From an uncultured Clostridia bacterium (GTDB taxonomy: Bacteria; Bacillota; Clostridia; Oscillospirales; Acutalibacteraceae): 64,000 nucleotides of DNA. Under the pieces are notes generated by a model. It worked only from the letters and a program-made list of their open reading frames with translations. It did no database searches and was not told the DNA's origin. The position numbers were made by a program, and so were the translations under genes. Shown here in pieces: positions 1 to 13,800 of the stretch. The stretch covers positions 1-64,000 of the forward strand of contig CANRNI010000013.1 in the NCBI GenBank assembly GCA_947631945.1, in the 5' to 3' direction. How positions within the stretch are numbered: the stretch's first letter is position 1; each line of letters starts with the position of its first letter.

Positions 1-132
1 CAGGAATGGCTTGGACACAGCGATTTCTCTACCACGGCAAATGTATATGCCCATTTGGATTACAATTCCAAGTTGTCGTCTGCTGACGCTATGGTGAACG
101 GTTTGAAAGGAGCGTTAGGCGTGATCTCATAA
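1..132 (+). CDS. Tyrosine recombinase/phage integrase, C-terminal end (truncated by window start)
   Basis: Frame 1 reads QEWLGHSDFSTTANVYAHLDYNSKLSSADAMVNGLKGALGVIS*, with the LGHxxxxTTxxxYxH motif containing the catalytic Tyr. Confidence 0.9.
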   Translation, partial: QEWLGHSDFSTTANVYAHLDYNSKLSSADAMVNGLKGALGVIS

Positions 133-274: not shown

Positions 275-313
275 ATAAGAAAGCCCCCAAGCGGAAAAAC
301 CGCTTGAGGACTG
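275..313 (-). terminator. Intrinsic terminator downstream of tRNA-Ser
   Basis: Minus strand CTCAAGCGG-TTTTT-CCGCTTGGGGG followed by a T-rich tract. Confidence 0.6.
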
Positions 314-320
314 GATTTTC

Positions 321-410
321 TGGCGGAGAGTGTGGGATTCGAACCCACGTGCCCAGAATGGACAACCGCATTTCGAGTGCGGCTCGTTATGACCACTTCG
401 ATAACTCTCC
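321..410 (-). tRNA. tRNA-Ser(CGA)
   Basis: RC GGAGAGTTATCGAAGTGGTCATAACGAGCCGCACTCGAAATGCGG...GGTTCGAATCCCACACTCTCCGCCA: paired acceptor, CTCGAAA anticodon loop, long variable arm, encoded CCA. Confidence 0.95.
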
Positions 411-756
411 GTGTGTTTATCTTCAACATCGGCTCTCAAAAGTGCTTTGGAAAAGCGAGAGAACTGATGGAGAGAACTACAACATATTTACTTTTCAAGG
501 ATAGCCGAAAACCCTTGTAAAATCAAGACTTTTCGGAGGGAGCTGTCCAAAGTGGTGCTTCGTTTTCGAGTGCGGCTCGTTATGACCACTTCGATAACTC
601 TCCGTGTGTTTATCTTCAACATCGGCTCTCAAAAGTGCTTTGGAAAAGCGAGAGAACTGATGGAGAGAACTACAACATATTTACTTTTCAAGGATAGCCG
701 AAAACCCTTGTAAAATCAAGACTTTTCGGAGGGAGCTGTCCAAAGTGGTGTTTCGT
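371..756. repeat. Two tandem 193-bp units (371-563 and 564-756), each carrying a half tRNA-Ser plus leader
   Basis: Read by eye as near-identical (one c/t difference seen near the unit end); a third unit head starts in phase at 757. Confidence 0.9.
564..603 (-). pseudogene. 5' half of tRNA-Ser (acceptor 5' strand, D-arm, anticodon loop), copy 2
   Basis: Same sequence as 371-410 of the intact tRNA, with no 3' half. Confidence 0.85.
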
Positions 757-796
757 TTTCGAGTCAGGCCCGTTATGACCACTTCGATACACCTCC
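757..796 (-). pseudogene. 5' half of a divergent tRNA-Ser, copy 3
   Basis: RC GGAGGTGTATCGAAGTGGTCATAACGGGCCTGACTCGAAA. Confidence 0.8.
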
Positions 797-836
797 ATAT
801 TCAATTTTCAAGCCGGAGCGTACCGAAAAAATGTGA

Positions 837-875
837 TTTCAAGACAGCTCCGTTATGACTGCTTGATACTTCTCC
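837..875 (-). pseudogene. 5' half tRNA-Ser-like (TGA anticodon loop), copy 4
   Basis: RC GGAGAAGTATCAAGCAGTCATAACGGAGCTGTCTTGAAA. Confidence 0.7.
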
Positions 876-1014
876 GTTTACCGAAAATAACTATCACAGA
901 ATTTTTCTGCTTTGTTATTTTATCAAAGTAAATATATTTTGTCAAGTGTTTATCATTTATTATTCTGTAATTTTTCAATATTTATCATATATGTTTTTAT
1001 ATCCTTAAAAATCC

Positions 1015-12992: not shown

Positions 12993-13800
12993 GCACGATT
13001 TGATTGCAGGCGCGAGAAGAATGGGCAATATATATCTTGCCGCGGTCATCGCCTGCGCGGCCATGCTTTTTTCGGCGTTTTTGAAAAGCGGCTTTTTAAG
13101 GTTTCTGACCTCCTCGGCAGTTGTTGTAATAGCGTTTATCGCCGTAATCGTGACCTTTGTTTCTGTAGTGTTCGGCGCGAATAAAAGTCTTTTCGGCAGG
13201 GAAGGGTATCTTACTCAAACGCTGCCCGTAAGAACAAGCTCTCTGATTTTTTCAAAATGGCTTACTTCGTCTGTCTGGGTTATAATAAGCTACTCTCTCG
13301 CGGCTGTAACGTTTGTGGGAGTTGCGATATACTGGACAAGCGAAAATCAGGACGGAGCGGAAGTTTACGATATGATTTATTCGCTTTTGCAGAGCTTCGG
13401 CATAGGCGCGGAATCGGTTTATACGACTTATCTTATAATAAGCGCGGTTATAGGTCTTTTCAACGCTTGTATATTCGTAATGTTCGTGCTTTTTGCGATT
13501 ACTCTTTCAAATATAAGACCTTTTCATAAGCTCGGCTCGTTCGGAGTTATACTGTATCTTGCCCTTACCGTGTTTATTATTCAGGGAATATCTTACGGTC
13601 TTGAGAGCCTTTGCGATATTACGCTTATAATACGGGAGTCGGGCGTTTCGATGTCGGTCGATGCGGCGGCGATAGACGAGGCGTCAAGAACGGGAGCCTT
13701 GCTTATAGGCTTTACCGGAGTTTATTTCAAGGCGCTTGTAACGGTGTTTATCTATATTTTGACCGTTCAGCTTACGGAGCTTAAAATCAATCTGAAATAA
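12973..13800 (+). CDS. ABC-2 type permease
   Basis: Overlaps the ATPase gene 3' end; multiple hydrophobic segments. Confidence 0.8.
   Translation: MIGKLIKHDLIAGARRMGNIYLAAVIACAAMLFSAFLKSGFLRFLTSSAVVVIAFIAVIVTFVSVVFGANKSLFGREGYLTQTLPVRTSSLIFSKWLTSSVWVIISYSLAAVTFVGVAIYWTSENQDGAEVYDMIYSLLQSFGIGAESVYTTYLIISAVIGLFNACIFVMFVLFAITLSNIRPFHKLGSFGVILYLALTVFIIQGISYGLESLCDITLIIRESGVSMSVDAAAIDEASRTGALLIGFTGVYFKALVTVFIYILTVQLTELKINLK

Follow-up and report, generated by a model that had tools for sequence, protein, structure and literature searches.

Genomic islands with a displaced 5' fragment of the target tRNA gene were reportedly described by Zhao and Williams in 2002. In the Islander collection an island is defined by a tRNA gene and a fragment of that tRNA which restores the gene, and 159 of the 3919 islands have a 5' fragment (PMC4383910). 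CIMEs and accretion mobilisation have been reviewed elsewhere (PMC5704250). The window analysed here, a stretch of 64,000 nucleotides from an uncultured Clostridia bacterium, contains a tandem array of tRNA-Ser 5' halves next to an intact tRNA-Ser gene. This array is very probably the accumulated 5' side of nested (Russian-doll) insertions, each element bringing a complete tRNA-Ser with it.

The initial annotation had described an intact tRNA-Ser(CGA) with three orphan 5' halves ending at the anticodon loop, two near-identical 193-bp units and an origin of the last two halves from different tRNA-Ser sequences, and the analysis with ARAGORN, Rfam and a repeat search of the window confirmed this description. 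The intact gene is located on the minus strand at 321-410 (acceptor stem GGAGAGT/ACTCTCC, anticodon stem CCGCA/TGCGG) and was called by both ARAGORN and Rfam (57 bits). It is probably the newest, element-borne copy, and its anticodon loop CTCGAAA (core 2) lies at 371-377 on the same strand. The three orphan 5' halves, also on the minus strand and all cut at the anticodon loop, precede it. Using the repeat search, 40-nt copies of the half were located at 371-410, 564-603 (100% identity) and 757-796 (85%). The orphan half at 564-603 is identical to the 5' half of the intact tRNA, and its loop CTCGAAA (564-570, minus strand) presumably served as the core at which the newest element crossed over. 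The half at 757-796 has the acceptor GGAGGTG and derives from a different tRNA-Ser(CGA). The fourth and outermost half (837-875), presumably the oldest, is weaker, with a one-base deletion in the D-arm and the UGA-type loop CTTGAAA, and is recognisable along its full length.

The 193-bp direct repeat comprises 371-563 and 564-756 (99% identity). Each unit includes a spacer of 153 bp, which is located at 411-563 in the newest unit, with a pair of arm repeats (469-477 and 456-464) 93 bp from the upstream core, and at 604-756 in the second, near-identical one (arm pair 662-670 and 649-657; both spacers on the minus strand). The two units may have arisen by the successive insertion of two near-identical elements, or one unit may have been duplicated from core to core. 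The third spacer (797-836, minus strand) is only 40 bp long and is probably a shortened older unit. A sigma-70-type promoter (TTGACA-17-TAAAAT, 917-945, minus strand) was detected by a consensus scan 40 bp before the outermost half and is presumed to be the host promoter serving the entire array. On the other side of the intact gene a G+C-rich, probably terminator-like hairpin (284-309, minus strand) is followed by two copies of TTTTAGGAGAGAAC at 209-243 (direct repeat D6), which read GTTCTCTCC in the sense of the tRNA. These putative integrase arm sites adjoin the integrase gene and contain a 9-mer identical to that in the spacers. In the direction of the tRNA, from high to low coordinates, the order is promoter, three spaced orphan halves, intact tRNA, hairpin, GTTCTCTCC repeats and the end of a convergent integrase gene.

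Only the C-terminal end of this tyrosine integrase gene is present (1-132, plus strand); the gene is cut off because contig C13 of the 103-contig draft genome starts at base 1 of the window. The initial annotation had pointed to this nearby integrase gene, which is indeed relevant. The remnant shows 86% identity over 36 residues to the integrase of the related genome G331. The integrases of G331 and of Lachnoanaerobaculum belong to PF00589, to which the C-terminal end in the window can be linked by similarity. Relatives with solved structures include the "Int protein" entries 6emy, 6emz and 6en0, which are those of the Tn1549 integrase. A second copy of the integrase end is located in the window's own genome (G000, contig C99, about 2421-2708; L402). 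It has arm repeats and a hairpin as in the window, but the integrase is truncated and there is no tRNA; this is consistent with a decayed sister element, although it is not proof of one.

A comparison of the locus in related genomes had been proposed as a check, and the layout of the array does recur. When the genome collection was searched for pairs of 5' halves separated by 170-200 bp, at least 118 contigs from across the Clostridia matched the pattern. Among the isolates with an array are Oscillibacter ruminantium GH1, Marasmitruncus massiliensis, Lachnoanaerobaculum sp. OBRC5-5, Lacrimispora defluvii, Caproiciproducens galactitolivorans BS-1, Sinanaerobacter chloroacetimidivorans and Clostridium sporosphaeroides DSM 1294. 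Among 60 relatives searched, tandem copies of the third half were present in several genera, often with a spacing of about 193 bp. We collected 117 distinct arrays with an intact tRNA, and their unit lengths cluster at 78 and at 168-204 bp. The gene for tRNA-Ser(UGA) (loop CTTGAAA) also bears arrays, with five 5' halves in G312. Since the half-tRNA layout recurs across genomes, it is neither due to chance nor an artefact of one assembly. A misassembled repeat at a contig end might be suspected from the position of the window at the end of a contig in a fragmented draft and from further contigs that also break within such arrays, but the identical structure is found inside long contigs of isolates and in the single-contig genome G044, which leaves this explanation with a practically negligible chance. 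Assembly collapse, which had been named as a possible refutation, is excluded for the class by these isolates.

Besides the common units, several genomes (L043, L197, L205, L196) contain units of a second, shorter type, which measure 78 bp and have different repeats. The lengths of 130 distinct units between 160 and 210 bp peak near 170, 181, 192 and 200 bp; these steps of about 10-11 bp possibly reflect helical phasing, with the proviso that related units are not independent. Among the viral contigs eight loci carry the 5'-half pattern and none is a complete free circle of this type. On one of them (IMGVR_UViG_3300031998_000941, about 2140-2300; L124) a tRNA-Ser 5' half ends at CTCGAAA and is flanked by GGTCGGTAAC repeats, and a small gene before the half resembles a DNA-binding protein. 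This locus is possibly the free attachment site of a 5'-restoring element.

The spacers of most units share a common layout, in which a hairpin about 30 nt past the core is followed by a pair of short direct repeats. Of the 126 units of 160-210 bp with a detected pair, 108 have its start 91-94 bp from the upstream core, and its distance to the downstream core is variable (about 87-91, 98-101 or 107-109 bp). The sequence of the pair varies by unit (GTTCTCTC, GTTCTCCC, GTTCTTTC, GTTCTAAT, TTTCTACG), and in many loci the spacer repeats reappear downstream of the intact tRNA, beside the integrase gene, or at the distal end of the element. Judged from this arrangement, the pair would look like a putative integrase arm anchored on the upstream core. 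A hairpin of the CCCTTGATTTATAAGGG type is located about 35 nt past the core in both 153-bp spacers of the window and in most spacers of the relatives. The spacer hairpins fold stably, with only one of five clearly beyond shuffled sequence, and possibly have a role in attenuation or protein binding.

If an element delivers a whole tRNA and splits the resident one, the intact tRNA is predicted to be self-consistent and the neighbouring orphan half is free to differ from it, and the missing 3' half is expected at the far end of the element, where it should pair with the orphan 5' half. In the window stem pairing cannot discriminate, because the nearest orphan does not differ from the 5' half of the intact tRNA. 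Informative were 72 of the 117 arrays, in which the nearest orphan has a different acceptor stem. The acceptor stem of the intact tRNA pairs with itself at 7/7 positions in 69 of these arrays and at 6/7 in three, and in none of the 72 does the orphan 5' half pair as well with the intact 3' half. These numbers bear on a different route to the array, in which core, spacer and 5' half (193 bp) form a gene-less circle that is inserted repeatedly by an integrase in trans and each time swaps only the 5' half. The near-identity of the two units in the window and a lone 191-bp unit between two cores at a non-tRNA hairpin site in G216 would fit such mini-units, but half-only swaps predict mismatched acceptor stems in the intact tRNAs, and these were observed in none of the informative arrays. 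Orphan 3' halves at distant element ends would also be unexpected, and excision of a full element through the inner core could likewise leave a lone unit. We regard this route as unlikely; as the main route the half-only swap is rejected by the stem pairing.

The lone unit itself (minus strand of L207, contig C13 of G216; also L109) has CTCGAAA cores at 13060 and 13251. Its site is a hairpin with a 9-bp stem and an anticodon-like loop, upstream of an integrase gene. It is either a secondary insertion or an excision remnant and leaves room for the movement of units without an element.

For the 3' halves the initial annotation holds locally, as no 3' half adjoins any of the three orphan 5' halves of the window, and a search of the window's own genome, in which the element of the window is itself unassembled, detected no orphan 3' half. 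It does not hold for the relatives, where such halves occupy the distal end of the element or are present on separate contigs. Seven genomes contain an orphan 3' half whose pairing partner is an orphan 5' half instead of the intact tRNA. The orphan half of G331 (GGAGGGC/AACGA) matches a 3' half (GCCCTCC/TCGTT) 27 kb downstream, with 7/7 pairs in the acceptor and 5/5 in the anticodon stem. In the isolate Lachnoanaerobaculum the partner is located 39,975 bp away on the same 2.9-Mb contig (7/7, including one G-U). Matching partners are present on other contigs in Lacrimispora, Sinanaerobacter and RUG13650 and, for tRNA-Ser(UGA), in G176 and G207, where the G207 half matches the outer of two orphans. 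The distance is measurable only on a shared contig, and five of the seven partners (two isolates, two drafts and RUG13650) are located elsewhere. Among random pairs from the same pool 4.7% match as well as the observed partners. One orphan 3' half of G207 and that of C. sporosphaeroides match no orphan 5' half, and in L374 the anticodon stem matches with only 6/7 pairs in the acceptor.

Next after the orphan 3' half of G331 comes a second integrase gene, which is that of the older element. When the flanks of the newer element are joined, they align unbroken to G528 (1827 bp, 83%), and from this alignment G528 appears to carry a natural uninserted state.

Classical islands, in which a 3' part of the tRNA on attP would restore the gene, with the 5' halves arising by separate duplications, were also considered. 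Such elements do exist at the same tRNA: in G021 (L038, 5518-11776) and G439 (L239, 1664-16753) the displaced orphan 3' half is identical to the intact one. These two are classical 3'-restoring elements, and two integration modes coexist at one target. As a general explanation of the arrays, classical restoration is very unlikely, for it accounts neither for upstream 5' halves whose cores have an arm region at a constant spacing nor for displaced 3' halves that differ from the intact tRNA yet match an orphan 5' half. It fits G021 and G439 and fails in the seven genomes with matching partner halves.

The gene content of two elements was inspected. The element of G331 encodes the tyrosine integrase, a conjugative coupling protein, an NlpC/P60 protein and antirestriction proteins, with no relaxase identified; that of Lachnoanaerobaculum encodes an integrase, a relaxase, a TraG-type ATPase and a coupling protein. 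Both look like ICEs, and in Lachnoanaerobaculum the integrase, relaxase and conjugation genes expected of an ICE are all located within the element.

Nested insertion would proceed as follows. A tyrosine-integrase element, an ICE in both cases examined, would undergo recombination between its core and the anticodon loop of a resident tRNA-Ser, the crossover loop being CTCGAAA or, in some lineages, CTTGAAA. The left end of the element would consist of the core, an arm region of about 150 bp, a complete tRNA-Ser, a terminator, often more arm repeats, and the convergent integrase gene. Splitting of the resident tRNA would leave its 5' half as an orphan upstream, on the side of the promoter, and displace its 3' half, also orphaned, to the distal end of the element; the new complete tRNA would then be located about 190 bp downstream of the orphaned 5' half. 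The next element would target the newest tRNA and add one further 5' half and spacer, and the elements may later decay or depart. In the relatives the halves match across the element, the stems of the carried tRNA match each other and the arm geometry is fixed. From these features we infer the recombination itself, and an equal origin for the array in the window, which shares the order of parts and a related integrase end with the elements of the relatives. Serial integration scars of a tRNA-targeting tyrosine integrase at the anticodon loop, as initially proposed, are supported; missing from that proposal were the delivery of a complete tRNA, the orphaning of both old halves and the arm-like nature of the spacers. 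The dedicated attachment array suggested beside it is unneeded.

The promoter signals were compared by a consensus scan, which is not a map of transcription starts. The mean best sigma-70-like score was 10.0 upstream of the outermost halves (n=144) and 11.2 upstream of array-free tRNA genes (n=89). In the spacers it was 6.2 (n=170), compared with 6.4-6.7 in shuffled sequence, and the same scan detected no promoter-like site in the window spacer 411-563. Because the spacer scores are no higher than those of shuffled sequence, the carried tRNA-Ser appears to be promoterless and would presumably depend on read-through from the host promoter. In G103, G290 and G402 the array-borne tRNA-Ser(UGA) is the sole tRNA-Ser(UGA) found with a permissive pattern, which suggests that array-borne copies work. 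On balance we lean towards a widespread ICE-type class in Clostridia that replaces its target instead of repairing it, by means of a complete promoterless tRNA-Ser expressed only behind the host tRNA promoter.

The halves are located downstream of a promoter and are probably transcribed, and their D-arm shows no significant excess of divergence over that of intact copies in a sample biased by the search pattern, so an independent function, either as decoy transcripts or as tRNA fragments, had to be weighed. The decay of the halves with rank likewise shows no significant trend in this biased sample. However, the insertion geometry fully accounts for the halves, every half is accompanied by integrase arm repeats, and the outermost half of the window carries a deletion. 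No processing signal was found. We consider such a function extremely unlikely, and the corresponding suggestion of the initial annotation is left without evidence.

Island finders presume that a fragment restores the target tRNA. Here the whole gene is replaced, and therefore such programs would miss or misplace these elements and leave the halves unexplained. The ordered 5' halves represent the insertion history of one site, and as the acceptor stems reveal which halves belong together, the two ends of an element can be assigned to each other in draft genomes as well. If the carried complete tRNA is indeed promoterless, integration would act as a promoter trap, the loss of an element could cost the cell a needed tRNA, which is a simple route to dependence of the cell on a mobile element, and the stacked 5' halves would be an ordered record of past insertions.

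Compared with the islands of the Islander class (PMC4383910), the arrays have much in common: the integrase gene is adjacent to the tRNA gene at the junction, crossover is in the anticodon loop, a functional tRNA is kept, islands accrete in tandem, and in relatives an intact tRNA at one end is accompanied by a displaced fragment at the other. The defining feature of Islander is absent, because a complete gene is carried. There a tDNA fragment of attP restores the gene, whereas here the gene is replaced by a complete tRNA located about 190 bp within the element; the intact copy has stems that fit one another but not the split gene, the old gene is left as two orphan halves, and the 5' halves are stacked upstream. 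In islands with a displaced 5' fragment (PMC4383910) this fragment also remains on the upstream side, but the element gives only the 5' part of the gene, whereas matched stems and separate 3' halves indicate a whole gene here. The array units are bounded by cores much as CIMEs are by att sites; like CIMEs (PMC5704250) they are short gene-less stretches stacked at one site and possibly carried by a neighbour, but they are read as leftovers of nesting. The Dehalococcoides ssrA islands (PMC3146451) are also numerous tandem islands at one RNA gene bounded by a short gene repeat, but they involve a serine recombinase and 20-bp 3' repeats over up to 100 kb, and no complete replacement gene. An integron cassette array does not apply, as the integrase scores 69.5 bits, far below the integron-integrase cut-off of 265, and no ORF of at least 80 aa is confined to a unit. 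A search of the open literature gave no matching report of a complete tRNA carried at the integration site. In the features tested these elements otherwise behave as tRNA-targeting islands, and the replacement of the target by a complete gene is, as far as the open literature goes, the new part.
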